This document shows positions 21,681 through 40,998 of a DNA stretch of 64,000 nucleotides, piece by piece. The position numbers were made by a program, and so were the translations under genes. Under the pieces are notes generated by a model that saw nothing but the letters and a program-made list of their open reading frames with translations, did not search any database and was not told where the DNA came from. The DNA is from Effrenium voratum (lineage: Eukaryota > Sar > Dinophyceae > Suessiales > Symbiodiniaceae), in NCBI GenBank assembly GCA_963377175.1, contig CAUJNA010002113.1, positions 121,001-185,000 on the forward strand, written 5' to 3'. Position 1 is the first letter of the stretch, and the number at the start of each line of letters is the position of its first letter.

Positions 21681-21685
21681 CTTCT
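21681..21685. repeat. Target-site duplication, left (CTTCT)
   Basis: CTTCT directly precedes the 5' LTR and is repeated directly after the 3' LTR at 33209-33213. A length of 5 bp is typical for copia integrases. Confidence 0.93.
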
Positions 21686-21828
21686 TGAAGAATTTGATCG
21701 GTCAGTTTGGGGTTTTACATCCGTTGCATCCGCAGTGTGGCTGTTCAAGCGTGAAAATGTGCGAGCAGCGCACTTGGACGGTTTGTTGTTTCCTTTTGGG
21801 CCCCAAACCGGTAACCCTTGAATCTATA
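21686..21828 (+). repeat. 5' LTR, 143 bp
   Basis: Starts TGAAGAATTTGATCGG and ends CCCTTGAATCTATA. Identical over its full length to the 3' LTR. It begins with TG but ends in TA rather than the usual CA. It is short for an element of this size. Confidence 0.95.
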
Positions 21829-21844
21829 GGTTATAAGCCGTAGG
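21829..21844 (+). other. Candidate primer binding site
   Basis: Directly after the 5' LTR lies GGTTATAAGCCGTAGG. It lacks the TGG that pairs with a tRNA CCA end. Its first bases resemble the internal (anticodon-region) priming sites known in some copia elements, where a half-tRNA is used. The matching tRNA cannot be named from this sequence alone. Confidence 0.4.
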
Positions 21845-21860
21845 CCCCTAGCTCTAAGCA

Positions 21861-24800
21861 ATGGACGGTTCCCTTGTGCCAGTTGATGGATCCAGCATGC
21901 CTGTGGATGCTGCCGGAGCTAGCTCCGGCAACGCCACCGGCGGCGGTGTGCGAATGTTCGCATCAAGCGCTAATGCGCAATACAACCGCACCCTGGTGAA
22001 TTCCCTTCAACTGTACAATACCGCAATCTTTGCTTTTGGGAATGATGCAGCCATTAGGTCTGAAGCCGAAGCCCTGCATCAAGCAGCTGTAACGCATTTG
22101 CAAGCGGAAAACCGTGAGGAGCTCCGTGCCGCACAGAATCAGCTGCATGCACACTACGCTGAATGTGTGCAAGCCCAGTCGCATAGGATTCGTGAATACG
22201 AACAGCGAGTGAGCGATGAGTTCATGCAAGAAGTGAACTTCGCTGAAGCTAGGATAAGCCAAGTGTGTGAGGAAAATGCCCAAGCATTGCATGAAGCGGA
22301 AATGGGACGCAAAACAACTGAGTTTAGGCAAGCCATCGAATCCACCCTGGCTGAAGCCCAGCAGCTCCTCCATGAGCAAGCTGCCAAGCATGCCGATGAC
22401 ACAGCCCGTGTCGAGGCTACACACGCCAGAACGGTTGACATGATGGCACACCAAAACGGGCTTCTGCAGGACGAGCTTGATGAGCTGAAGAAGTATCAGA
22501 AGCAACACGACCTCCGCGAGGATGGATCGAAGCCCAAAGGGGTAGGTGATACCCGAGAGGATTCACCAGAGTTGATGACCGACGACATGAAGTCAGCTCG
22601 GTCCCAAAGGTCAATGTTGGACCCGTTGACCCATCCGTTTCAATATGCAAAGGAAAAGTTGAGGTCGCTTGTTACCTATGACGGTTACGGGGATGAATAT
22701 ACCCCTAGCGTGATTCCGACTGCCGAATGCGAAGCACTGCCCGCAGATGCTCGCGATCCGCAAGGACCAGCTGAAAAGCCATCAGGTAGCAGCCGATCCC
22801 CGGTGAAAACAAGTGCACCGGTTCCACCCCTGCAATTCTCTCAGGGGCCAATGTCAACTGACCGCAAGCAGGGTGGCAAGCCTCCTGGCGGTCCGCCACC
22901 TGATGATGATGGCGACGGCGATGGTGACGAAGACGATGGTGACGGCCTCGGGCCCAACCTCGGCAATGAAGCATTCGCCAAGATGTTGATGAAGTTAGTA
23001 AAAGGCCAAACGAACGATGAAAAGCCCAGAACCCGCGAAAGCGAGACGTTGCGATTCAAGGAGATGCCAACTCCTGAAACGTACCGTGAATGGAAAACAT
23101 CGGTTCGTGAGGATGTCCGCGCCGCATCTGACCGTCCAGACGAGGCTTGGCCTTGGATCATGGAAGTCTGGTCTGATCGCGAGGACAAGAAGAAGCTGTT
23201 GGAGGAGCTCGGCGAACCGGGAAAATTCGTGACCCTAGACACGAAGATTCTCGCAGCGCTCACGCGTTCAGCGAAAGGCGATCTGGCTCAGCGAATCCTA
23301 ACAGCAAAGGAAGAATGTGCCAAGGAGGGAAAGGCCATGAGAGGAAGGCAGGTCTTGTTTATGTTTGACCAATATTTCAAGACCAGTGAAGAAGCCGGAA
23401 ACCTCTACTCCTTGGAGGACCTGTTGCGTGTCTCGCGACACGGCGAAGGAATCATCGATCTCAAGCGTTTCCTGAATGCTTGGGATTCCGTGATCGCCGG
23501 CATGAAAAAGCCGCCGGAAGAAAAGGTGTTGAAAGACATCTTGCTTCGCCAAGTGAGAAGCTGCCATCTGTTGCGGTACGACATCGACACATATGATCGT
23601 TGCCGTGATGATGATCCCAATAAATCGTACGATTTCCTAATGCGTTGCATGAGGGATCTAATCGAGAGGGATAGGCTTCGCGAGAACCGAGAGCGCGTGT
23701 CCAAGGTCAATGCCAGTAAAGCCCCGACGCCCAAGGCTGGTGCTGCCGCTCCTGAAAAGAGGGACCCCAAGAAAAAGAGCGCACCTAAGCCGAAGGACAC
23801 CGAGGAGAAGTACTGTTTTGACTTCCAGAAGGGCTCGTGCACGAGGGGGGCAAACTGCCCTTACGCGCACCGCAAGGAGCCGCGAGGACGCTCTGCGACC
23901 CGTGGCAGGCCAAGTTCCCCCAAAGGCGGAAAAGGAGAGAAAGCACCGTGTTCTTTCTTTGCCCAAGGGAAGTGCACTAGAGGTGATAAATGCAAGTTTA
24001 GCCATGCCTCCACGGGCGGCAAATCTGCCGCCGCGGCATCGAGCAGCGAGGCCAATGCAAATCCTGCGGCTAAGAAGCGTGCAAATTCACCTAAGCCTAA
24101 GCCCAAGGCCAAAGCCGCTGCAGTCTGCACCAGGTACGCCATGTTCGCAAAGCCGATCAACCCAATTGGAGTGTCATTCGACACCAATGCTCATGTTCAT
24201 GAAATCCCCGCCGAAGGCGATGGTTTCAAGCTTGAGTATGAGGAACGTCAGTACAATAGGATGTTTCCAAGTGCCAAGGACTGCCCCAGGCCGACCAAAG
24301 GGACTAACAAGGCAGCGCGCAAGGCCGCGAATCAGTTGAATGCCGTAGTCAAAGCCATGGAGAATGGAGCCCAGCCCGCTTGCGGTTTCATGTGCGATGT
24401 GGAATCTGATTCCATCTCAAGCCTATCGTGTGACGAGTGCCTGAGAGTTGCCATGCCGCCTCACGATGTCCGTAAGGATGTCGAAGCGCCAAGGGCAGCC
24501 ACCCCTGCCCCAAAGGGAAAGGATGTGTGGCTCATTGATTCCGGTAGTGAGCAGGACCTCATCAGCAAGGCTGCACTGAGGAATGCGTCCAAGGCAATCC
24601 GAAAACAGGCCCCGCAGCCTATTCGCCTTGTGACTGCAAACGGAAACATCACTGCTTCCGAGATCGCCGACATCAATGTCGATGCATTGTGCGAGCCTGC
24701 TCAGCCTTACATCCTCGAGAGTTCTCCCGCAGTGCTGTCGCTGGGTGTGAAGTGTCTGGATCAAGGATATTCCTTTCATTGGGAATCCGGGAAGGCACCA

Positions 24801-27800
24801 ACCATGGTTCGCCCTGACGGTGCTCTGATCCAGCTCAAGGTTGACGGTCATGTGCCATACATGGACTCTAGTTGTGAAGCTGAGCCATCGTTGAGTGCAG
24901 TAGCAGCATCAAAGCCAGCGCCTGCGCCAGTTCATGACGAAGGCATCGACGAAGGTGATGATCCCGACGACGAAGTTGAGCGGTTGGTGAGATCCCGCAA
25001 AGAGCAAGATCTGGTTGCCGAAGCAGGTACCAAAGAGCACTTGTTTGCACACTATCCGAAGAATCCCTTTTGCCGCACTTGCCAACGTGCCAAGATGCTT
25101 GCCCCATATGCAAGATCGAAAGGCGGGCAGGGAAGGCTCGAGACGAAAGCGTTTGGAGATCACATCATTGCTGATCATGTGATCCTCAAGGCCAACATCG
25201 AGCAAGGCATAAAAGGCGAATGGTGTGCTCTTGTGATCAAGGACGTGCATACGCAGTTCAGGTACGTTTACCCGTCGACCAGCAAAAGCACGGAGCAATC
25301 CGTTGCAGGGATCCAGCATTTCATTTCCGGTAGGGATGAGGTTGAGGTTCTCTACACTGATAACTCCCGGGAATTGAAAGCCGCAATAGAGCAGTTGGGG
25401 TACCGTCATCAGACCTCCATTGAATATGTTGATTCTTCCAAATCTTTCGTGGAAAGGGAAATCAGACATCTGTTGGAGGGAGCACGTGCGAACCTTGTCC
25501 AGTCAGGGTTCCCACTGTCGATGTGGCCATTTGCCATCCAGCACAATGCAGTTGCGACCAACATCCTGCCACAGTTGAATGGAAATGATTCGCCATGGTA
25601 CCTCAGGTTTAACAAGACCTTTGATGAAGCTGAGATACCTTTCGGAGCAAAGATACTGTTCTGGAACAACCCTGCACGAGCTGACAATCAGGCAGGCAAG
25701 ACTTCGCCAACATCGAATGAAGGCGTGTTTCTCGGGTACCATATTCAGCCCGGGTTCGCATGGAAGGGTGAGTTCCTCGTTGCAAAACTAGAAGGGCTCG
25801 ATTACCATATCGAACATGCGTCCCTCACGGTACAGCGAACAAAGCGCATTGAGCTTCCGACTGATGAGTTCATCTTCCCGATGAGGTTGTTGAAAGACCC
25901 TGCATCTCATCCACCTGTTGCCAGTGCTAGGACACGAGATGATCCTGTGCCGTTGGAACGTGGGCAAGCCCACATCGAGGAACCCGCCGCATCGGAGAAA
26001 TCCGAAGCGAAGACCAAGCCTGTCGTGCCCGACAAAGGCGGTGCATTCGACCCGAGCATAATGCCTGATGGGTCACCAGTACCTGATGGCTATGTGTGGG
26101 ATGGGGTTCGGCTCGTCCGTAGGAAGGCCGGATCCAAAAGGCCTCCCGATATCCCGTCTGACATGTGGGTCATGCTCGGCAGCCAGGACCGAAAGGCCCT
26201 AACCCAGCAGTACGAAGATCAGCTCCGCGCAGATGCCAAGAAGGCAGTGCTTGAGACAGCAGTCTCTTCGGAGGCCAGATCCGAGCACCCCGAAGCCGCA
26301 TCGAGTGCAAAGCCGACCAGCGCCGCCCGCGAGGGCGAGCCGACATTGCCTGTGATCCGGCACGCGCCTGCGATGTCCGTTCTTCCGGAACGTGACAAGC
26401 CATCGAAGGAGCCGCATCGCCCGCAATTGCGTGAGTTGGTCAAAGAGCGAATCAAGAAGGTTGAATTTGATGTTGCTCTTGAACTGTTCAGTGCAGTCGT
26501 TGCCAGGCTTGTACCAAAAGCCGAAGTAGCCAATACGCCAAAGGCCCAAGCTGCCCTTGACAAGGAATGGGAAAACCTTCGAAAGAAAGGCACTTGGGAT
26601 GAGTTCAGAGTAAATGAGTGTAGGCGCGTCATCAGAGAAGCCCAGAACAAAGGGGAAAAGGTTCACATTGGAAGGATTTTCGAGGCTTGTTACGAGAAGG
26701 GTAGCGAGCTTCCCGATGATGATCCCAACAAGAAATTCAAAGGAAGGACCGTTTTCCAAGGGAACAATGTTTACGATGAAAACTCTGTTGCAGCATTATT
26801 TGCGGAGCTAGGGTCCAGCCCAGCGTCAATGGAGGCAGCCAAAATCCTCGACGCTTTCGGGTCGCAGCCCGGCTACCGCAAGGCGCAAGCCGATGCGAAG
26901 CAAGCCTACATCCAAGCCCTGTTCAAAGGCGTTCCCACATGGCTTAGATTGCCCAAGAACAGATGGCCCAGCCATTGGAGCAAACAATACATTGACCCCA
27001 TCGTTCCACTTGTGCTAGCCTTGTACGGACATCCCGATTCAGGGGGGCTTTGGGAAAAGCACCTCGAAGATGCCCTAAGCAAGCAAGGCTTTGTAAGAGT
27101 GTTACCCGAAATATGGACATCCATTTTCCATCATCCGGAACTCGACCTGCTGCTCGTTGTATATGTTGATGACTTCAAGCTTGCAGGACCCGCCGGTAGC
27201 CTTGATAAGGGATGGGAACTGATCGGGAAGGTTGTCGAGATCGACGCGCCCGAGCCATTCGGTAGATACTTTGGGTGTCATCACATCGAAAAGAACAATG
27301 TCAGATTGTCTAAAGAGGAACACCCTTTCAATCACGTGTTTGAGGGTTCTGCGCAACACGCGGGTGTTTGCTCTCAAAGAAGGACTGAGGACTACTGGGA
27401 GCATGATGAGAACACGAAAACGTGGACACGCTATCACTTGCAGCCCAGAAAGTGCCTATTCCGTCCTAAGGAGCAAATGAGTGCATTCGCTTGCAGCCTC
27501 GACCCCCAGCGTGTGACAATCAAAGATCAATCCAAATCAAGTCCAATTTGCGATGAGTGGTCGCGTCATGCAAGTGATCGCATTTCTGCGGACACCGCGT
27601 GGTGGACCGGACGTACTGTGTTTTCCTACGGTGAGAATCAGGAAGCAGCTCTGCAATGTGCATTGCCCTCTAAGCCTGGATCAATGAGAGACAAAACCGC
27701 GGCAAAGAAAGAAGTCAAGGTTTCGAAGTTCAAAGGACCCGAAACGATATGCGATAAACCTGTTGGTTGTATGACTAAAGAAGTCAACATTGTTGAGTAC

Positions 27801-29633
27801 GACATGTCTGATTTCCTCAAGTCATGCGTTGACGCATATTGCGAACTTGCCAAGGTGAACGTTTCTTCGCTGAGTAAGGTTAGCACTCCATTCATCGGTT
27901 CGAAGGTCGCGAGACCTGTCGTAAATGAAGAGGAGCCAAAGGGCAGGCTTCAAACGATCGCTGCAAAAGTACTAATGAAGATTCTATTCGCAGCCCGCAT
28001 GGCTAGGTATGACCTGCTAAGAGCCACGCAAAGCCTTGCCTCGCGCGTGAGTAAATGGTCCACTGAGTGCGACAGCGCTCTACATCGGCTTGTGTCTTAC
28101 ATACACTGTTCGAAGGACCTAAAGATGCGAGGTTTTATCGGGGATAAGTTCTCTGATTGTAGGCTGTGGTTGTTCGCTGACGCGGATTGGGCAGGCGAAT
28201 ACGACTCGCATAGTACAACTGGTTGCACCATGATCCTGGTAGGTCCAAACACGTACTACCCACTGAATGCCTTCAGTAGGAAGCAGACAGCGACCGCAAC
28301 AAGCTCGACTGAAGCCGAGGTCATCGCTGCGAATCAGGCGCTCAGAGCAGAGGGATTGCCGACGCTGTCGCTTTTCTGCCAGCTCAGCCTGTTTGGAAAA
28401 GAAGCACATGGGTATGCTCAAAAGGCAGGAAAGGCCTCCCTTGATGTGCCCGATGGCATTGTTGCTCGCATCGACCCCGAGTTGGATGAAATTCGGTACG
28501 GAAATGTTGATGCGGGCACAAGTGTAGCGAATATCAATGCCCTAACTGTGCATCTTAGTGATAAGTGGAAAGTTAAGCTGATGGAAGACAATCAGGCCAC
28601 GATCACTATCCTGCAGCAGGGACACTCACAGAAGCTAAGGCACACGGATAGGACCCAACGCATTAGCTTCAGATGGCTCCAGGAGCAATTCGTGAATAGG
28701 CAGTTCGAGTTAATCAATGTTGACACTACCCTCCAAGCTGCAGACATCTTGACCAAGGCGTTTGACAGCACCCCAGTGTGGCACCATGCACTTGAGCTGA
28801 TCGGTATCTCCCCCAATCGCCAGGCGCGAGCCTGTGCCACCAGTTTGCTGCTCTCCCCGTGCGCCAAGGCCGGAGAAGTTAGTGATCAGGGGGGGCAGAT
28901 CGCCGCGCTATGCAACGCTCAGCCCAAGCGCCTCCTTATTGAGTTCTGTTGTTCGACGACCTCACGGTTGGGCGAATCAAGAGACTCTTCAAAGGGATGT
29001 CGTGTCATTCGGGTAACTGAAACCGAAGACGGGTGCTCTGATACATGCAGGCAGTGGTTAGTCCATGAAATTGCCGAATTTAGGAGCAAGAATCCTAAGG
29101 GTGCAATAATGTTCTACGTTTCATTGCCTTGCACTGGAGGATGCCCGTGGGGTTATGTCAACCAGCAAACTCCCAAAGGTGCTGCCAAGATTGAGGGTCA
29201 CATCAAGCAATTCCGATCACTGCTGAGAGGGTTCAAACGCATTCTCAATGATGTCTATTCTGATGACGTTAGAGTAGCCTTCGAACTTCCCAAGGCGTGT
29301 CGTTATTGGAAATGGCCCGAACTATGGAGTTTCTTGACTAAGTACAAGATGAACAAGTACGAATTCCATGGTTGCAAAATCGGCATTAAAGGGAGAAATG
29401 GAAAACCTATGAAAAAGCAGTGGGTCGTTGCCAGTAATATGCCCACTATTTCCGTGGTTGAGTACTTCAAGTGTGATGGTTCTCACGAGCATGATGAAAG
29501 CCGTGGTACGCATTTGAAGGAAGCCGAGGGATACACGTATGTTTACACCGATGCCGTTCACAATGCATTTTCTGAACATGCCACCATGCAGCCGTTGCTT
29601 TCGAGTGATTGTGCTGCATCTTCTTCGCAATGA
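21861..29633 (+). CDS. ORF1: copia-type Gag-Pol polyprotein (2590 aa) with extra C-terminal domain
   Basis: The ATG at 21861 is the first in frame after the LTR. Domains by residue: about 60-220 coiled-coil Gag region; 330-360 Gly/Asp-rich linker; 380-620 Gag-like helical region; 652-700 two CCCH zinc knuckles (each C-x7-C-x5-C-x3-H); about 892 aspartic protease motif LIDSGSEQD; 1060-1085 HHCC pre-integrase zinc finger (HLFAHY...CRTC); 1104-1199 integrase core with Asp (IADHV), Asp (YTDNSRE) and Glu (SFVEREIRHLLEG); about 1678-1770 reverse transcriptase with ADAKQAY and the catalytic YVDD; 2106-2242 RNase H with FADADW, STEAEV and MEDNQA. After the usual copia end (DILTKAF) come about 250 extra residues including FYVSLPCTGGCPW. 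No stop or frameshift is present, so it is probably functional. It encodes particle, cDNA synthesis and integration functions. Confidence 0.93.
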   Translation: MDGSLVPVDGSSMPVDAAGASSGNATGGGVRMFASSANAQYNRTLVNSLQLYNTAIFAFGNDAAIRSEAEALHQAAVTHLQAENREELRAAQNQLHAHYAECVQAQSHRIREYEQRVSDEFMQEVNFAEARISQVCEENAQALHEAEMGRKTTEFRQAIESTLAEAQQLLHEQAAKHADDTARVEATHARTVDMMAHQNGLLQDELDELKKYQKQHDLREDGSKPKGVGDTREDSPELMTDDMKSARSQRSMLDPLTHPFQYAKEKLRSLVTYDGYGDEYTPSVIPTAECEALPADARDPQGPAEKPSGSSRSPVKTSAPVPPLQFSQGPMSTDRKQGGKPPGGPPPDDDGDGDGDEDDGDGLGPNLGNEAFAKMLMKLVKGQTNDEKPRTRESETLRFKEMPTPETYREWKTSVREDVRAASDRPDEAWPWIMEVWSDREDKKKLLEELGEPGKFVTLDTKILAALTRSAKGDLAQRILTAKEECAKEGKAMRGRQVLFMFDQYFKTSEEAGNLYSLEDLLRVSRHGEGIIDLKRFLNAWDSVIAGMKKPPEEKVLKDILLRQVRSCHLLRYDIDTYDRCRDDDPNKSYDFLMRCMRDLIERDRLRENRERVSKVNASKAPTPKAGAAAPEKRDPKKKSAPKPKDTEEKYCFDFQKGSCTRGANCPYAHRKEPRGRSATRGRPSSPKGGKGEKAPCSFFAQGKCTRGDKCKFSHASTGGKSAAAASSSEANANPAAKKRANSPKPKPKAKAAAVCTRYAMFAKPINPIGVSFDTNAHVHEIPAEGDGFKLEYEERQYNRMFPSAKDCPRPTKGTNKAARKAANQLNAVVKAMENGAQPACGFMCDVESDSISSLSCDECLRVAMPPHDVRKDVEAPRAATPAPKGKDVWLIDSGSEQDLISKAALRNASKAIRKQAPQPIRLVTANGNITASEIADINVDALCEPAQPYILESSPAVLSLGVKCLDQGYSFHWESGKAPTMVRPDGALIQLKVDGHVPYMDSSCEAEPSLSAVAASKPAPAPVHDEGIDEGDDPDDEVERLVRSRKEQDLVAEAGTKEHLFAHYPKNPFCRTCQRAKMLAPYARSKGGQGRLETKAFGDHIIADHVILKANIEQGIKGEWCALVIKDVHTQFRYVYPSTSKSTEQSVAGIQHFISGRDEVEVLYTDNSRELKAAIEQLGYRHQTSIEYVDSSKSFVEREIRHLLEGARANLVQSGFPLSMWPFAIQHNAVATNILPQLNGNDSPWYLRFNKTFDEAEIPFGAKILFWNNPARADNQAGKTSPTSNEGVFLGYHIQPGFAWKGEFLVAKLEGLDYHIEHASLTVQRTKRIELPTDEFIFPMRLLKDPASHPPVASARTRDDPVPLERGQAHIEEPAASEKSEAKTKPVVPDKGGAFDPSIMPDGSPVPDGYVWDGVRLVRRKAGSKRPPDIPSDMWVMLGSQDRKALTQQYEDQLRADAKKAVLETAVSSEARSEHPEAASSAKPTSAAREGEPTLPVIRHAPAMSVLPERDKPSKEPHRPQLRELVKERIKKVEFDVALELFSAVVARLVPKAEVANTPKAQAALDKEWENLRKKGTWDEFRVNECRRVIREAQNKGEKVHIGRIFEACYEKGSELPDDDPNKKFKGRTVFQGNNVYDENSVAALFAELGSSPASMEAAKILDAFGSQPGYRKAQADAKQAYIQALFKGVPTWLRLPKNRWPSHWSKQYIDPIVPLVLALYGHPDSGGLWEKHLEDALSKQGFVRVLPEIWTSIFHHPELDLLLVVYVDDFKLAGPAGSLDKGWELIGKVVEIDAPEPFGRYFGCHHIEKNNVRLSKEEHPFNHVFEGSAQHAGVCSQRRTEDYWEHDENTKTWTRYHLQPRKCLFRPKEQMSAFACSLDPQRVTIKDQSKSSPICDEWSRHASDRISADTAWWTGRTVFSYGENQEAALQCALPSKPGSMRDKTAAKKEVKVSKFKGPETICDKPVGCMTKEVNIVEYDMSDFLKSCVDAYCELAKVNVSSLSKVSTPFIGSKVARPVVNEEEPKGRLQTIAAKVLMKILFAARMARYDLLRATQSLASRVSKWSTECDSALHRLVSYIHCSKDLKMRGFIGDKFSDCRLWLFADADWAGEYDSHSTTGCTMILVGPNTYYPLNAFSRKQTATATSSTEAEVIAANQALRAEGLPTLSLFCQLSLFGKEAHGYAQKAGKASLDVPDGIVARIDPELDEIRYGNVDAGTSVANINALTVHLSDKWKVKLMEDNQATITILQQGHSQKLRHTDRTQRISFRWLQEQFVNRQFELINVDTTLQAADILTKAFDSTPVWHHALELIGISPNRQARACATSLLLSPCAKAGEVSDQGGQIAALCNAQPKRLLIEFCCSTTSRLGESRDSSKGCRVIRVTETEDGCSDTCRQWLVHEIAEFRSKNPKGAIMFYVSLPCTGGCPWGYVNQQTPKGAAKIEGHIKQFRSLLRGFKRILNDVYSDDVRVAFELPKACRYWKWPELWSFLTKYKMNKYEFHGCKIGIKGRNGKPMKKQWVVASNMPTISVVEYFKCDGSHEHDESRGTHLKEAEGYTYVYTDAVHNAFSEHATMQPLLSSDCAASSSQ
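28932..29630 (+). other. Extra C-terminal domain of ORF1 (residues about 2357-2590)
   Basis: This region lies beyond RNase H, where copia polyproteins normally end. Visible motifs in order: RLLIEFCCSTTS (hydrophobic strand then small residues), RVTETEDG (acidic after a strand), FYVSLPCTGGCPW (a Pro-Cys motif), FELPKACRYW and KQWVVASNMP. The order of a small-residue loop, an acidic residue, a PC motif and then an E/N-P motif is reminiscent of a SAM-dependent methyltransferase Rossmann fold such as C5-cytosine methyltransferases. No single motif is canonical, so this is only a structural suggestion. Confidence 0.4.
29630..29633 (+). promoter_or_regulatory. ATGA stop/start overlap between ORF1 and ORF2
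   Basis: The ORF2 ATG (29630-29632) shares bases with the ORF1 TGA (29631-29633). No slippery heptamer of the X XXY YYZ type is seen in the short overlap upstream, so coupled termination-reinitiation is more likely than frameshifting. Confidence 0.7.
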
Positions 29634-32600
29634 GCAGCGCGACGGCTATGGCGCATCCCGCGAGGGATTGCGATCCGGCATGGAGGAGATGGATGGAGAA
29701 TGTCGCTACCACTTCGGTATGCACGAACGGCAAATACGACGCTAACCTCGCCGCCACGGTCAAGGGCCTCCTCGAGACGACCTCTGCACAGTCGCTTATT
29801 CATACATGGGTGCAGGACCAACCGCACTACCTGCAATTGCTTACACCCCTGTTAACCATAAGCGAACCGTACTTGAAAGTTTTGCAGGCCCCACGTGTAC
29901 CAGACCGCGACCTCCTTATCTATGTGACTGTCGCTGATTCAGGACTGTCCATGGTTTCGGGCAAGAAGCGCAAGCTTCGCAAGTACGACTTTGCGGAGCG
30001 TTTGGATGCCTCTCGCCCGGCGCGTGTCGGTGCATGGAGGTCTGAAATGCTTTGGGGCAAGGGCTTACAACAGCTGTGCAAGCGGTTGGCCGCCCTCATC
30101 GACGAGGTGCGTACCGACTACCCAGCAGCCACCATCATTCCGATGATTTACTGGAATGGCAACGAGCTCGTTGGGAAGGACGGCCTCGAGCCCACTGGTA
30201 CATATCCTTACGACACCCCCATCGGAGACGCCGAGCAACTTCTCGCTGACACCAGGCGGCACCTGGCTTGGACCAGGGATTTCGCGGCCCGCAAGGGCTG
30301 CGCATGCCTTGGAGTCATGACCGGCGCGAAGAGCTACCTCTACGGCTTCTCTATGATTTGGGACCGTTTCATGACGGAAGTCCGGGATTACATCATCGGC
30401 GACCCCAACAATATGTTTGTATACGTTGATGCTACACCCTTCGTCGAGACCATTGATTTGCTGGACAGGTATCATATGTGCTTCAGCGACGACAATATCA
30501 CGAAGACCGTCCAGTTTATGCGCGGAACCCATCATATGTTGTACATGCTTTCCATCTTGCGCCCCGCAATGGGCAGCGTAGCCGAGCTGACACGTTCGCA
30601 TGATTGCACAATGCGTCCGATCGATGTGCTCGAGGTGCGCCACCAAGAGGATTGCACAGTCAACGTTGAGGTTCTCGCGTACTGCAAGGAAACGCTAACG
30701 AAGTGCGGCGTTTCATTGTCAGAGATGATCGGGCTCCCTTTCACCCGTGAAGAAGTGGAGTTCCGGCAGCCCCTCGATTTCGCCCCTGTCGATCCAGCCG
30801 AATTTGCAACTTCAGGTGAGCCTTCCGGTGCTGATGTTTCCGAAAGTGTTCGCCCGGCGCAAGCCGGTGCAAAGGCGGCTGCGGTGGCACAGAGGGACGA
30901 GGCGACGAGCAGGCCGGTACCACTCGACTCCTACGGGAGGAACGTGACTGGGGGCCACTACGATTGCTGGGTTTATAGCATCCATGACGGCGTGAAGTAT
31001 GTTGACTATGGTGAGGGCCCCAAGCGACTTGAGATCATCAAGCAGCCTTCTTTTGATTACGACCCTTCCGTCAGGAGAATCAGCAATGAGTACCACAGCT
31101 CCCTGACGTGCATCTCGAAGATCCTCCGTGGTCGAGGGACAGAAGGATGTGGGTACGTGATGGATGAGGACGGCTACATGGACCTTGAAGATTTGGGACT
31201 CGCGCTTCGCAAGGAGCTGCGACATCCCATTCCATGGAATATTCAAAGCATCATGGACATCTTCAAGCTCGACAAAAAGCAGAGGTTCATTGCGCTTGGT
31301 TGCCCGGACGCAAGCCGGTGCGGAGACGTCCCCTGTTCTCATTGGATTTTCAAGATCAAGGCCTCCCAAGGCCATGAGGACTGGCTCCAAATTGACGACT
31401 CCGGCATCGCAAAGGAGTGGTACGTGAACCCGGGGACGGACCTCGGGCGCTGGTCTGGCTGGAACGTCTGCAGCAACCCTCCTACGGTGCTCTATCATCG
31501 CACCGATAAGCGGAACTTCGCCAACATTATGCGAAACGGACTGCTTCCAGGAGGAGGTGACCAGCACGAGACAGGCAGACCTCACGTTTTCTTCGCTGAC
31601 ATTCCGAGCACAAACGAGAATTACATCTCAGGTGTACGCGCTAACAAGCCCTTGGAAATACAGATCGACCTCAGGATGGCCATTCGCGCAGGGCTTTGCT
31701 TTTTCAAGACAGAGAGCGATGGCGTCCTCACGCGCGACAAGGTGCCCAACTACACGATTATTTCTGTATTGGACGCTACAAATGGCGACGTATGGTACAC
31801 TCGCTCCGAGCAATCGGATGCAGGTGCACCAGCTGCGGCGACTGAGGATGAACCCCAGGGGATGAAGCGCGACCAAGCCGTGGTTGATGATCGGTCCACA
31901 GCACTGGAGCGCATTGCTACAACCCGCACCAATGTGGCGTCTCCTCGCGCCCCGCAAGGGGAAGCGAAGAGACAGAAGACTTTCAATCCAATGGAGAACG
32001 TTGAGCTGAATGTCGCCACGTGCCCGGTTTGCAACAACAGTGTGTTCGAGGGGCAGGTCCACTGCACATCATGTGGGCAGTTGTCACCCCTCAACCCTCG
32101 CCTGTTGAAAGAGCAGCAAAAGAATTACCTTCTGCAGCGTTCCAATTTGCTGAAGAAGATGGGCCTCAGCACCCATGTCACAGCCCAGGTTTTGGCATCC
32201 GTGGGAACTTTTGACCTCCGCGAGGAGGATCGGAGTAGCATCCTTCGTGGCCTGAACTCCCCGGACAGTGCTGTCATTCAGGAGGCCCGGAAGAAGCACA
32301 AGTCCGCCCTGAAGAACGGCTACCACTCTCTACTTGATCGCTATGAACTCGACCTTCAATACAGGGTTCGTATGCTTGAAGTGGGCCGTCGGGATGCGGA
32401 TATACTCCGCATGGAGTTGTGTGCAAACCTCGTCTTGGCTGCTCCAAAGCAGTCGCAAGCCCAGCGCACTCTTGGAGTTGGCCTTGGATCAACTTCTGAG
32501 TCGCGAATCGCAAGGCTCGCGTACATAAAGACGGAGGTGGAGTTTCTGCCCAGCGAATTGCAGGATGCACTCAGTTCCCGTTGGATCATCATGTTTCAGG

Positions 32601-32953
32601 GAATGCCATACAGTCCACGGGCTTTTGTGAATGTTGTCTCCGAGCAGGACAAGCCTCGCAGCATTGGATGTTGGAATGGCATCATCCATTTGCGAAGCAA
32701 TTCCCTCGAGGACCTCCGCCACGAAATGGACTGGATCTTCAGCCAGAACGAGCGATATGCCCGAAACTCAGTTGAGTTTTCAAAGAACGAGAGCACCAAG
32801 CACCTCGCTCGCAATGCCGCTCGCTATGCCGATCAGAGCGCTCCCGCCGCCCGCGAGGGTGAGCATTGGAGCCAAGGCAGCTGGCAGAACTGGTCCGGTT
32901 GGGGAGGATGGTATGACAGCAGCGGTTACCAATCTACTTGGCAGTGGCGCTAA
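29630..32953 (+). CDS. ORF2: protein with Tpt1/KptA-like RNA 2'-phosphotransferase domain (1107 aa)
   Basis: The ATG at 29630 overlaps the ORF1 stop as ATGA, frame -1. Residues about 1-340: unidentified; VTVADSGLS, YWNGNELVG and LDRYHMCFSD could be nucleophile, Asn and Asp-x-x-His blocks of an SGNH hydrolase (weak). Residues about 480-560: CISKILRG, DEDGYMDLEDL and DKKQRF match the N-lobe of Tpt1/KptA. Residues 620-725: LYHRTDK, MRNGLLPGG, TGRPHVFFA, LEIQIDL and KVPNYTII match its ADP-ribosyltransferase lobe. Tpt1 enzymes remove a 2'-phosphate left at RNA splice junctions, using NAD+. The His of the usual Arg-His pair is Gly here (LRG instead of LRH), so activity may be changed. Residues about 797-815 form a CPVC...CTSC zinc ribbon. 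The C-terminus is Trp/Gly/Ser-rich. The frame is intact, and the ORF is part of the retroelement. Confidence 0.85.
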   Translation: MSSATAMAHPARDCDPAWRRWMENVATTSVCTNGKYDANLAATVKGLLETTSAQSLIHTWVQDQPHYLQLLTPLLTISEPYLKVLQAPRVPDRDLLIYVTVADSGLSMVSGKKRKLRKYDFAERLDASRPARVGAWRSEMLWGKGLQQLCKRLAALIDEVRTDYPAATIIPMIYWNGNELVGKDGLEPTGTYPYDTPIGDAEQLLADTRRHLAWTRDFAARKGCACLGVMTGAKSYLYGFSMIWDRFMTEVRDYIIGDPNNMFVYVDATPFVETIDLLDRYHMCFSDDNITKTVQFMRGTHHMLYMLSILRPAMGSVAELTRSHDCTMRPIDVLEVRHQEDCTVNVEVLAYCKETLTKCGVSLSEMIGLPFTREEVEFRQPLDFAPVDPAEFATSGEPSGADVSESVRPAQAGAKAAAVAQRDEATSRPVPLDSYGRNVTGGHYDCWVYSIHDGVKYVDYGEGPKRLEIIKQPSFDYDPSVRRISNEYHSSLTCISKILRGRGTEGCGYVMDEDGYMDLEDLGLALRKELRHPIPWNIQSIMDIFKLDKKQRFIALGCPDASRCGDVPCSHWIFKIKASQGHEDWLQIDDSGIAKEWYVNPGTDLGRWSGWNVCSNPPTVLYHRTDKRNFANIMRNGLLPGGGDQHETGRPHVFFADIPSTNENYISGVRANKPLEIQIDLRMAIRAGLCFFKTESDGVLTRDKVPNYTIISVLDATNGDVWYTRSEQSDAGAPAAATEDEPQGMKRDQAVVDDRSTALERIATTRTNVASPRAPQGEAKRQKTFNPMENVELNVATCPVCNNSVFEGQVHCTSCGQLSPLNPRLLKEQQKNYLLQRSNLLKKMGLSTHVTAQVLASVGTFDLREEDRSSILRGLNSPDSAVIQEARKKHKSALKNGYHSLLDRYELDLQYRVRMLEVGRRDADILRMELCANLVLAAPKQSQAQRTLGVGLGSTSESRIARLAYIKTEVEFLPSELQDALSSRWIIMFQGMPYSPRAFVNVVSEQDKPRSIGCWNGIIHLRSNSLEDLRHEMDWIFSQNERYARNSVEFSKNESTKHLARNAARYADQSAPAAREGEHWSQGSWQNWSGWGGWYDSSGYQSTWQWR

Positions 32954-33053
32954 AAGCGCAACTGTCATGGTTTGCATGTATACAACGGTTCCCCATGACC
33001 TTCTCCCTCTGTTGTGTTTCCGTTTGGCTGCTTTGTGAAAGGCCCCTTTAACA

Positions 33054-33065
33054 CGCAGAGGGGGG
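33054..33065 (+). promoter_or_regulatory. Polypurine tract
   Basis: GCAGAGGGGGG ends exactly at the first base of the 3' LTR, the expected position of the RNase H-resistant plus-strand primer. Confidence 0.85.
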
Positions 33066-33208
33066 TGAAGAATTTGATCGGTCAGTTTGGGGTTTTACAT
33101 CCGTTGCATCCGCAGTGTGGCTGTTCAAGCGTGAAAATGTGCGAGCAGCGCACTTGGACGGTTTGTTGTTTCCTTTTGGGCCCCAAACCGGTAACCCTTG
33201 AATCTATA
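33066..33208 (+). repeat. 3' LTR, 143 bp
   Basis: Identical to the 5' LTR at 21686-21828 base for base, and followed by the CTTCT target duplication. Confidence 0.95.
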
Positions 33209-33213
33209 CTTCT
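33209..33213. repeat. Target-site duplication, right (CTTCT)
   Basis: Same five bases as 21681-21685. Confidence 0.93.
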
Positions 33214-37770: not shown

Positions 37771-38341
37771 GCGCTCTCCCAACTATAGTGTTGATATTGG
37801 AACTTCGAGGGGGAACTGCCTTTTTTTCTGGTCCATGGAAGTCCCAAGCCGGGCTTGAGCCTTCTCCACAATGGCTTTCGGTTACCAAGCAGCCGGGCTG
37901 CGGCGCTCATATTTCAGATACGCGCCGTCTCCAACAGGCACTGGACGCTGCGTGCAATGACAACTATCTTCCTGCCGTGTTCTGATACAAACCGGCAAAG
38001 CCACCCCACCCTCCGCCCATTTGCCCCGGGGGAGGGAGAATCACACGGACATTGGCGCTGGTCGGTGCATCGTCATGGTTGGAACGCGTCTGGCTTCACC
38101 CGGGTACAATGTTGTATTGTGTTCATCGTTCTTGGTAATTGTGTGTGTTTAGTTGGGATCTTAGTTTGTTTCACTTTTGGCTGCATCTATCAAGGTTGGG
38201 ACAACACGTCTTCAGAGCGTGGCCGTAGGTAGCAGAGTGTTTTGGGTACTTGGACCCAGAATTTGGAACACTTTGGTTTGGGCCCGCACTGGACGTCTAT
38301 CTTTTTCTCGTTTGCTCGCGTGTCGAAAAGCAACCGCTGAG

Positions 38342-39625
38342 GACCCTGGTGGTATTTCATATTTTGGCTATGCGTACTACTCGATTTTTGCCGGTGAGCT
38401 GTCCACTGTTCGAATTGCAAGTGATAGGTTCCTCGGGGTGCAGGAGACGGCGGATGCAAAAGTTGAGCCTTCCACTTACACCATCACGGATGGCTCATAT
38501 AGTGTTTTCAAACGAAAGCTCTACGTGAATGTAGACAACACGGCTTGGGACTACGTGCATCCATTCCTTGCCTTCGGTTTTAGCTCGCCAGGGCAGGCAC
38601 TGGTGTCAAGTGTGGGATACATTCGAACAAATGTAGCACGGTTGGCGAAGATGAGAGCGCGAATCGCAGAGAGGGGCAATGACGAGGCAGACTATGTCTC
38701 CATCAAGCCAGACACTTGCCCTCTGGGCACGGAGCTCTCAGCTGTGCCATACGTGAATCAATTTGGAAATCCGAAGACAAGCTACAATTGTACCTTGTGT
38801 CCCTTGGGCAAGTTCAAGTTCTTGGACACTCCGACGCCTTGCACCTCATGCGAGGGAGGAAAATACACGGATGTAGTGGGGCAAACGGCCTGCCAGAGGT
38901 GCCAGGTTGGCTTTGAGGCGGTTGATGGCTTGTTCTGCCGTGCCTGTCAGCCTGGTTTCTACAAGAAGGAGACAGCAGCAGCTTCTTGTTCCCCTTGTAG
39001 CGCTGGCTCGTTCAGCAATCAATCAGCGCAGTCGGATTGCTTGTACTGCCCTCCTGGCCACTTCTCTCTGCAGGGCTCGACCACATGCGCACCATGCCCA
39101 ATCAACGAGATGGCGTCATTTCCGGGCACGACGCAATGCGCGCAATGTGGTGAAGGATTCTTTACGACCCAAGAAGCCTCAACAAGTTGCTCAAGATGTG
39201 GAAGTGGAAGATACAGGTCCAATGAATCGGCATGCCTGCAGTGCCCCGGCCGGATGACAACGCAATATTTGGCAGCCACCACCATATCAGATTGCGTTTG
39301 CCCAGAGGGCACGGTTTTCAATGGGGATGGTCGGCCAGGTGCGGGCGCTTGTGAAAACTGTATGGAAGGCTTAGATTGTATCTTGGGCAGTGACCTACGC
39401 AACTACGAGAGTTTTCTTGTTGGATCGGATAAGGAGCTGACCTTCCCGAGGTTGATTCCAGGCTACATTTCATATCCGAGTGAGCCTACGCAGGTGTACA
39501 AGTGCGGGAAGAACAGTCACTGTCCAGGCGGCGTTCCAGGAACGTGCGCTAGAGGGCGCATTGGCTTGGCTTGTGCGCGATGCCAAGCGGGTCAGAAGTT
39601 TGGTGTGGACCACTGCAAGGATCGG
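38342..39625 (+). CDS. PstS-like receptor gene, exon 4 (end of PstS domain and Cys-rich repeats)
   Basis: It begins DPGGISYFGYAYYSIFAG, the conserved last part of PstS (PGGIGYfGYaYY). ITDGSYSVFKRKLYVNVDN and FLAFGFSSPGQALVSSVGYI follow and complete the fold. From about 38710 come seven or eight GCC2/GCC3-type (ephrin-receptor/TNFR-like) modules of about 45 residues with C-x2-C-x-x-G-x-F/Y patterns: CEGGKYTDVVGQTACQRC, CQPGFYKKETAAASCSPC, CPPGHFSLQGSTTCAPC, CGEGFFTTQEASTSCSRC. Such modules are extracellular disulfide-bonded spacers, common in large protist surface proteins. The end is placed in the region after GVDHCKD because the next exon is in another frame. The extracellular location fits the signal peptide of exon 1. 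Confidence 0.8.
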
Positions 39626-39687
39626 CCTTGTCTTTGTCCATTGGGTGAAGAAATCGTGTGTTTTGAGGGAAACAATTTATTTGCTCA

Positions 39688-40998
39688 GAGAACCCTGACA
39701 AGGATTGCGAGCCCTTCGACCTGCTATCCTTTGTTGCATCCAGCATTGTCACGGGCTGTGCGCTTCCCATGTTCTACTACTTCATGAACTCCCCGATGAC
39801 TGCGAAGGCTTCAACCATCCTAAGCACAACCATGGCTTTCGGCATGACTTTGACGCTTCTTCAAACCATCGGCCTGGTTGGATTAGTCTCTCTTGACTGG
39901 CCATCCTACATGCAGCCCTTGATGGACTTCGTGTCTATTTTCATGCTGGATTTGGAATCGCTGAACTTTGATTGCCTAGGTTTCTCCTCGGCAGTCCGGT
40001 ACTGCATTAGTGTTGCTTGCTGGCCAGGTGCTCTACTTTGGCTGGTTGCCTGCAGTGTAGTTTCACAATTGGGCCCCAGGCGTTTTCGTTTCGCTGTGGC
40101 AAAGTTGCTGAGCACCATCGGCCAGGTCTTTCAGATTGGCTTCACAATTATGTCCAAGACCGCGCTCATGCCTTTCATGTGCTTCTCGCATCCCAATGGC
40201 AAATCCAGCGTATTAAGGTTCACAGATGTAATATGCTGGGAGGGAGGTGAGCATTCTACCATGGCTGTGTTTGGAGGCCTCATGACCGCCATTATGGCGA
40301 TGTTTTGGGCCATTTTGCTGTGGGCTGTGCTGCAGGCCCCAAGAAGATCTACGCAGGGGGATGCCTTCTTTCTGCAAGCCACGCGCTTCTTGTTCTTCCG
40401 CTTCCGGGGTGACTACTGGTGGTACGGCGCGTGGTTCATCCTGCGGGGGCCTTTGCTTTCCTTGCCGGTTGTCGTGTTCACCGATGTTCCAGCGATGCAG
40501 CTATTGACAATGACTGCGGTCCTTATGGTTTACATGGTGATTCAACTTGTGGCTTGGCCATGGAAAACCCCTCTCATCAATGTTGCCGATGGAGCTATGA
40601 GTATGATGATGATTCTGCTGCTCTTCATAGGTTCAGCGTTCTTGGATCGCTTGAGAGATGGAGAAATGCAGACATATTCGGTGCTTGCAATGGGCGTCCT
40701 TGGCATGCTATACTCGGTTGCCTTTGTTCTACTGTGCCTTGTGGGTCTGGCATTTATTTCAAGATCTGCCATGGGCTCCAAGGACGAGCTCAGCATTCTG
40801 ACCCTTGGCAAGCCTCCAAGCAACTCCATGCTGATGAACGCGCTCGATGCGTTTTGTCTGTCCTTTGGACAAGCAGACCGCAAGTTTCTTGAGCATACCA
40901 TAGATGAGCTCAGCGCCTATGACAGGCGACAGTCAGTCTGGCCCACGTGTTTTTTGCCGCTTCTTACAAAGAATTTGAACTTTTGGCCAGAAGCATAG
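39688..40998 (+). CDS. PstS-like receptor gene, exon 5 (multi-pass membrane region, C-terminus)
   Basis: After the acceptor TTTGCTCAG at 39687 the frame gives NPDKDCEPFDLLSFVASSIV and then about eight or nine hydrophobic segments. Examples are FVASSIVTGCALPMFYYF, ILSTTMAFGMTLTLLQTIG, AMFWAILLWAVL, MTAVLMVYMVIQLVAW, MSMMMILLLFIGSAFL and VLGMLYSVAFVLLCLVGLAF. A cytoplasmic tail of about 80 residues follows, ending WPEA at the TAG 40996-40998. The whole protein (binding domain, Cys-rich stalk, multi-TM domain) resembles the plan of class C GPCRs, though the membrane part shows no class C motif. It could equally be a TRP-like or transporter-like channel; protist GCC2/GCC3 proteins often end this way. 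Confidence 0.75.
   Translation, partial: ENPDKDCEPFDLLSFVASSIVTGCALPMFYYFMNSPMTAKASTILSTTMAFGMTLTLLQTIGLVGLVSLDWPSYMQPLMDFVSIFMLDLESLNFDCLGFSSAVRYCISVACWPGALLWLVACSVVSQLGPRRFRFAVAKLLSTIGQVFQIGFTIMSKTALMPFMCFSHPNGKSSVLRFTDVICWEGGEHSTMAVFGGLMTAIMAMFWAILLWAVLQAPRRSTQGDAFFLQATRFLFFRFRGDYWWYGAWFILRGPLLSLPVVVFTDVPAMQLLTMTAVLMVYMVIQLVAWPWKTPLINVADGAMSMMMILLLFIGSAFLDRLRDGEMQTYSVLAMGVLGMLYSVAFVLLCLVGLAFISRSAMGSKDELSILTLGKPPSNSMLMNALDAFCLSFGQADRKFLEHTIDELSAYDRRQSVWPTCFLPLLTKNLNFWPEA

Follow-up and report, generated by a model that had tools for sequence, protein, structure and literature searches.

The DNA analysed here (the window) is a stretch of 64,000 nucleotides from Effrenium voratum (contig CAUJNA010002113.1, positions 121,001 to 185,000). 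It contains a complete copia-type long terminal repeat (LTR) retrotransposon of 11,523 bp at 21686-33208, whose second open reading frame (ORF2) encodes a homologue of the RNA 2'-phosphotransferase Tpt1/KptA. The features of the element are, in window coordinates:

21681-21685, no strand: target-site duplication CTTCT, 5' side (repeat flanking the LTR)
21686-21828, plus strand: 5' LTR, 143 bp (self-comparison and genome LTR search)
21829-21842, plus strand: putative primer-binding site, which pairs at 13 of 14 positions with the anticodon arm of tRNA-Ile(AAT) genes
21861-29633, plus strand: gag-pol ORF, 2590 residues (ORF list)
23793-24005, plus strand: two CCCH zinc fingers (Pfam PF00642)
24525-24566, plus strand: protease motif (DSG), read by eye
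25038-25376, plus strand: integrase motifs (HHCC-like, TDN), read by eye
26718-27188, plus strand: reverse transcriptase (YVDD), by motif; RVT_2 is under the Pfam cut-off
28173-28328, plus strand: RNase H motifs, read by eye
29630-32953, plus strand: ORF2, 1107 residues; its start codon lies in the ATGA at 29630-29633 that is shared with the pol stop
31112-31735, plus strand: Tpt1/KptA-fold domain with R18 and R121 retained, R68K, H19 absent (CthTpt1 numbering)
32018-32080, plus strand: zinc-ribbon-like CxxC pairs, sub-threshold in a profile scan of ORF2
33057-33065, plus strand: purine tract upstream of the 3' LTR
33066-33208, plus strand: 3' LTR, 143 bp, same sequence as the 5' LTR
33209-33213, no strand: target-site duplication CTTCT, 3' side

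Paired LTRs and a target-site duplication, by which a Ty1/copia LTR retrotransposon is recognized, are thus both present. The order protease, integrase, reverse transcriptase (RT), RNase H in the gag-pol ORF is that of copia as judged from motifs only; RVT_2 matches this ORF weakly (18.8 bits compared to a cut-off of 31.6, E 0.0013). The element resembles Ty1/copia in its short LTRs, the 5-bp duplication, the order of the pol domains and a primer site directed at an anticodon arm. It differs by the long extra Tpt1 ORF after pol and by an extra module at the C-terminus of pol.

An earlier note, made from the letters of this stretch alone, had proposed a Tpt1/KptA-like domain within the intact ORF at 29630-32953 and had named a significant match to PF01885 as the check. 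Such a match was obtained for residues 495-702 of ORF2, with 60.7 bits (2.5e-16) against a curated cut-off of 26. The position of the intact ORF between LTRs was likewise borne out by the identical repeats and the 5-bp duplication. Furthermore, the predicted fold of the domain agrees with that of solved Tpt1 enzymes and contains both lobes that the note had recognized, the RNA lobe and the NAD lobe; the input alignment of this structure model contained known Tpt1s, which calls for caution with the fold match. The residues of the model align with Tpt1 structures from about residue 20 on, so that the prediction extends to the RNA lobe. The ORF2 domain is a homologue of PF01885 with the Tpt1/KptA fold.

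The catalytic tetrad of Tpt1, Arg-His-Arg-Arg (R18, H19, R68 and R121 of CthTpt1), reads R-H-R-R in 27/27 reference rows of our domain alignment. In the family of the window element, R18 is found in 20 of 21 rows and R121 in all 21. Position 68, in contrast, is a Lys and position 19 lacks the His in 21/21 rows. Position 19 appears as an R with an inserted G in two alignments and as a G in a third, which took in 39 of 45 sequences (one with a stop codon and five others were left out); it is never a His. The replaced His (LRG for LRH) noticed in the single sequence is therefore a property of the family, and R68K, which the note did not mention, has to be added. The NAD-site residues H101, T103 and R139 are kept in 21/21 rows, whereas H125 is changed to Phe or Tyr and G102 to Arg. 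Compared to Tpt1/KptA/TRPT1, the ORF2 domain is thus alike in profile match, two-lobed fold and the residues R18, R121, H101, T103 and R139, and differs at positions 68 and 19. The known proteins are free enzymes of about 180-250 residues, whereas the ORF2 domain is part of a multi-module retrotransposon protein. Because the tetrad of a functional RNA 2'-phosphotransferase is incomplete in the window family, we classify the domain, from its residues, as a divergent PF01885 homologue and not as a proven 2'-phosphotransferase.

The E. voratum genome (G000; 1.156 Gb, 3699 contigs) was searched for further copies. The PF01885 search gave 558 candidate places, of which 150 were scored; all 150 lie above the cut-off. 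Based on profile range and score, and with part of the places read, 81 of the 150 were assigned to the window family. In the corresponding RT search, 131 of 4436 candidates were scored, and for 73 of these 131 copies the listed Tpt1 matches include one that lies 3.7-5.7 kb downstream in the same orientation, with a spacing of 4.4-4.6 kb in 62 cases. For eight of the 81 Tpt1 places, the RT matches listed contain no partner. Among the 58 RT copies without a listed Tpt1 match, three were read: two contain the domain with frameshifts and one contains part of it. A sister family whose RT is 62% identical accounts for five of the 58. In one sister copy, C225, the protein homologous to ORF2 is split over two frames and matches PF01885 with 32.2 bits over profile positions 49-176. 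It is 27% identical to ORF2 over 590 columns (E 3e-46), and 23% identical to the N-terminal part over 216 columns. The note had held that relatives without the domain, with a unique capture in this copy, would speak against its proposal; 81 assigned places and a sister copy carry the domain instead. A protein search moreover returned a cluster of 126 member sequences whose representative is 97% identical to ORF2. Read by eye, C225 shows LRGR, without a His, yet keeps R68; on the basis of this one copy, the loss of H19 may therefore be older than R68K.

The ends were examined in ten further copies. Eight have both LTRs at the expected position, and in two the 5' LTR was not located there. All eight are flanked by matching 5-bp repeats (C1369 after allowing two changed LTR end bases), and the two LTRs of a copy differ by 0-2 substitutions, gaps not counted. 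In a genome search with the LTR, 40 of 313 candidates were scored. All 40 are identical to the window LTR; 18 pairs are spaced 11.34-11.44 kb apart, another pair is 28.8 kb apart, and two LTRs stand alone. Given these identical LTRs and near-identical LTR pairs, the window family has moved recently.

For an analysis of selection, 20 copies were chosen from the 81 and each was compared with the window. The Tpt1 domain yielded synonymous divergences (dS) of 0.034-1.05 and nonsynonymous divergences (dN) of 0.002-0.055; dN/dS is in the range of 0.03-0.06 for 18 copies and 0.10-0.11 for the other two. One copy (C3) has a stop codon inside the domain. In all six comparisons that cover the whole of ORF2, the Tpt1 segment has the lowest dN/dS of five segments (0.028-0.061), compared to 0.065-0.115 for the N-terminal and 0.094-0.112 for the C-terminal part. 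The Tpt1 domain is held under strong purifying selection in the window family. A host-type enzyme that is fixed in a multi-copy family and maintained by purifying selection is what defines a captured accessory enzyme, and both properties are found here. The RT of the same copies gave dN values of 0-0.007 and dS values of 0.025-0.185, far below those of the Tpt1 segment in 17/20 copies; the RT was unusable in C3273, C3089 and C3 and partly aligned in others. In these copies (L124-L163), the synonymous divergence of the Tpt1 segment (31070-31768) greatly exceeds that of the RT (26601-27500). This difference suggests that the copies are mosaics which arose through template switching or gene conversion.

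After the 5' LTR, the window reads GGTTATAAGCCGTA, whereas the eight other copies with a 5' LTR read GGTTATCAGCCGTA. The window site was first read as tRNA-Ile(UAU), with the pattern ACGGCTTATAACCGT. Because the eight other copies carry GGTTATCAGCC, this reading was replaced by tRNA-Ile(AAT) with a wobble inosine. The complement of the primer site corresponds to an anticodon arm and stops after the second base of the 3' stem strand. The 15-mer ACGGCTAATAACCGT occurs five times in the genome, compared to zero occurrences of the reversed control, and two of the five loci are called tRNA-Ile(AAT) genes. The one disagreeing base lies opposite the wobble A, which is an inosine in mature eukaryotic tRNA-Ile. 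In the eight other copies, the opposite base is a C, as expected had the inosine of the mature tRNA been copied. As the site complements the anticodon arm of tRNA-Ile, a cleaved 5' half of this tRNA is the probable primer of the window family. Drosophila copia is reportedly primed by a half tRNA-iMet.

The earlier note saw a single element, and its identification of the domain in that element is supported; the occurrence of Tpt1 goes beyond it, to a family of long interspersed nuclear elements (LINEs) and probably to a second one. At L002-L030, PF01885 matches with 150-167 bits within a large ORF. One such locus, C1668 (G000:C1668:28001-45000), was read at full length. Behind the Tpt1 ORF, at a distance of 21 bases, lies an ORF that matches Exo_endo_phos (26.4 bits) and RVT_1 (46.9 bits). 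Because of this ORF directly downstream, the Tpt1 carrier of the main type is a LINE. An OTU-like motif set precedes Tpt1 in the first ORF, and the divergent types L037, L038 and L039 share this layout; the LINE family with an OTU-like region and Tpt1 in its first ORF comprises L002-L032 and L037-L039. The OTU-like region has no Pfam match. The best PDB match of a profile built from three sequences is to viral polymerase chains (E 0.0014), which we take for OTU proteases of nairoviruses. The weaker matches of this profile are nearly equalled in score by an unrelated fusion protein and by ATPEG2.

A different arrangement is found at C1241 (G000:C1241:34001-55500; L184, L033 and L034), where Exo_endo_phos (25.6 bits), RVT_1 (34.8 bits) and the RNase H-type RVT_3 (35.2 bits) were detected. 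In the downstream ORF, Tpt1 matches with 59.3 bits, and a helicase-like region reaches 18.7 bits with AAA_30, whose cut-off is 27. Judged from this locus, endonuclease, RT, RNase H, helicase-like region and Tpt1 probably constitute one element. Loci of the helicase type, with Tpt1 at the element end, are L184, L033 and L034 plus L035 and L040-L042; they probably represent a second LINE family, the endonuclease, RT and RNase H having been read at C1241 only.

The tetrad is complete in 7/7 rows of the main LINE, 2/2 rows of the L039 type and 5/5 rows of the helicase type; the two rows of the L037 type have a Lys at position 68. For the main LINE, where 14 of 29 rows were covered, the dN/dS of Tpt1 is 0.03-0.05 in 11 comparisons (dS 0.87-1.18) and 0.10-0.12 in three close ones. 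Values of about 0.16 for L037 compared to L038 and of 0.15-0.32 in the helicase type show that the constraint on Tpt1 is weaker there.

A separate Tpt1 ORF with a canonical tetrad, L001 (G000:C276:95860-96411), has the top PF01885 score among the scored places (174 bits) and is probably the host Tpt1 gene. A tree was calculated from 46 of 86 prepared domains, in which rows P0017-P0022 carry the label "eukaryotic" by our own assignment. The window family and the LINE types are joined weakly (84/74), and the helicase-type domains group with the rows labelled eukaryotic (95/96), where long branches meet. The window domain is distant from L001. Eight groupings were tried, two of which needed no test. 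Not rejected were a single clade of all mobile Tpt1s (p 0.148), the helicase type with the LINE (p 0.122) or with the window family (p 0.352), and the eukaryotic rows with the window family (p 0.349) or with the LINE (p 0.219). Grouping all mobile Tpt1s with the host ORF gave p 0.043. We argue that copia and LINE-type elements took up Tpt1 separately because their backbones are unrelated, and not because of the Tpt1 tree.

The note knew of no LTR retroelement with this domain, and our literature searches of open-licence papers likewise found no description of Tpt1 in retroelements. The nearest precedent is the capture of DNA methyltransferases (DNMTs) by LINE and DIRS elements of Symbiodinium (PMC5890265). 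SymbioLINE-Dnmt, SymbioDIRS-Dnmt3 and KnitGypsy-Dnmt3, from Symbiodinium and Klebsormidium, are likewise cases in which unrelated retroelements repeatedly captured a nucleic-acid enzyme of host type, and their enzymes are under purifying selection, with Ka/Ks below 0.2 (PMC5890265). These elements bring DNA methylation, whereas the Tpt1 elements would bring RNA phosphate chemistry; moreover, the copia elements of Symbiodinium are described as free of any DNMT domain (PMC5890265), whereas a copia element is the Tpt1 carrier here. The list of enzymes captured by retroelements thus grows by Tpt1. That selection preserves Tpt1 in selfish elements which are unrelated but share a genome and the need to protect and copy RNA suggests that Tpt1 chemistry helps such elements to copy themselves. 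Tpt1 occurs in all domains of life, and its substrate outside fungi and plants is an open question (PMC6333775, PMC6582358). The elements tie the enzyme to an RNA that can be isolated, namely element RNA and its primer, and offer a natural set of variants, with a canonical tetrad in most LINE-type rows and an altered one in copia.

We tentatively propose, with a confidence somewhat short of even, that the Tpt1 domain works as an NAD+-dependent enzyme on RNA phosphates in the ribonucleoprotein of the element. It would ADP-ribosylate 2'-phosphates or phosphorylated ends left by the cutting or joining of element or primer RNA. The removal of these phosphates would perhaps come next and leave an RNA able to survive and be copied. 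Processing of RNA ends or 2'-phosphates is favoured because an RNA stage is common to the element types. For the copia family, the primer-binding site points to one candidate substrate, the cleaved 5' half of tRNA-Ile. Cut tRNA halves often carry a 2',3'-cyclic, 2'- or 3'-phosphate end, and priming requires a free 3'-OH. In fungi, 2'-phosphates originate from the fungal-type tRNA ligase; a single genome-wide match to PF08302 (tRNA ligase CPD; 37.6 bits compared to a cut-off of 23) hints at such a ligase in this genome.

Owing to the Lys in place of R68 and the lack of H19, catalysis may halt at step 1, that is, at ADP-ribosylated RNA. Tpt1 transfers ADP-ribose from NAD+ to the RNA 2'-phosphate in step 1 and releases the phosphate in step 2 (PMC6333775). 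In RslTpt1, the exchange R64A, equivalent to position R68, reduces the rate of step 1 about 3-fold and that of step 2 about 210-fold; with H17A, equivalent to H19, step 2 is about 3-fold slower (PMC6333775). As loss of the R68 side chain thus seems to harm step 2 much more than step 1, one can conceive of an enzyme that goes no further than ADP-ribosylated RNA. The Lys at position 68 may also do the job of the Arg.

Several points weigh against this proposal. LINEs need no tRNA primer, hence a half-tRNA substrate cannot account for their Tpt1 domains. The inosine explanation suits the eight other copies, but not the A of the window itself. In sliding windows, residues 31-120 and 271-330 of ORF2 are tighter than the Tpt1 domain (dN/dS 0.01-0.02); selection is therefore acting on the entire ORF2 protein. 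The tetrad is termed essential (PMC6333775), and Ala at each of its positions, H41 included, abolished the 5'-end RNA ADP-ribosylation of human TRPT1 (PMC6582358). With the tetrad being essential in known enzymes, the variant of the window family might be inactive. Yeast deleted for tpt1 gives a longer primer-extension product, and a reverse transcriptase thus seems able to pass a 2'-phosphate (PMC6456296). A block to copying would therefore not be the reason for Tpt1, and the idea that a 2'-phosphate completely prevents reverse transcription, unsupported according to PMC6456296, was dropped.

The domain could instead serve a counter-defence, repairing or modifying tRNA or element RNA that was cut or tagged by an RNA-targeting defence of the host, for example by capping 5'-phosphate ends with ADP-ribose against exonucleases. 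We know of no dinoflagellate defence of this kind. The uptake by unrelated RNA-copying elements would suit an arms race, and TRPT1/KptA can ADP-ribosylate 5'-phosphorylated RNA ends (PMC6582358); however, the dN/dS values are very low while arms-race interfaces often change fast, and the tetrad changes predict a loss of the 5'-end activity (PMC6582358). This explanation is unlikely, albeit worth serious consideration. Alternatively, the domain could be a non-catalytic component of the particle that binds RNA or a nucleotide. The uniform loss of H19 and the R68K exchange in 21/21 family rows would fit, as would the changes of H125 and G102. The retention of H101, T103, R139 and R121 in 21/21 rows, the R68 of the sister copy, as read by eye, and the entire tetrad in most LINE-type rows argue to the contrary, and we regard the absence of catalysis as rather improbable.

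An extension of the proposed enzymatic role is doubtful: RNA phosphate or ADP-ribose chemistry of the Tpt1 type would be general in dinoflagellate retroelements, acquired in separate uptakes, and the copia version would be a step-1 RNA ADP-ribosyltransferase that leaves ADP-ribose on RNA, such as the half-tRNA primer or cleaved element RNA, and does not remove the phosphate.

It is very unlikely that the domain has another substrate and ADP-ribosylates, for example, cDNA ends or a host protein. TRPT1 also modifies 5'-phosphorylated DNA (PMC6582358), and the predicted NAD lobe has a fold common to ADP-ribosylating toxins; however, the RNA lobe is predicted too, and the authors of PMC9458441 detected no activity of human TRPT1 on proteins. 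A unique, functionless capture of the host Tpt1 gene by this one copy, for which the genome does hold a donor in L001, is rejected, as copy number, age and selection contradict it: many copies have the domain at the same place, all three RT copies read among the 58 hold at least part of it, the sister family carries it, dN/dS is far below 1 and L001 is not near the window domain in the tree.

Two further modules of the element, both also present in L199, were noticed by eye. The C-terminus of pol (28960-29560), after RNase H, is cysteine-rich with PCTGGCPW and ELPK..YWK motifs and recalls a methyltransferase, without a Pfam match at E up to 1. The N-terminal module of ORF2 (29924-30484) shows motifs like those of SGNH hydrolases (ADSGLS, GNE, DRYH). 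It matched neither Pfam nor PDB, and its structure model (mean pLDDT 31) was unusable; the identity as SGNH hydrolase, supported by eye only, was set aside. Downstream of the element, at 38177-40998, a repetitive, cysteine-rich long ORF is followed by another long ORF whose hydrophobic segments look membrane-like; judged by eye, the two are perhaps a host receptor-like gene. Elsewhere in the genome, a tandem array of exact matches to the dinoflagellate spliced leader is located on the minus strand of G000:C722:109307-122977.

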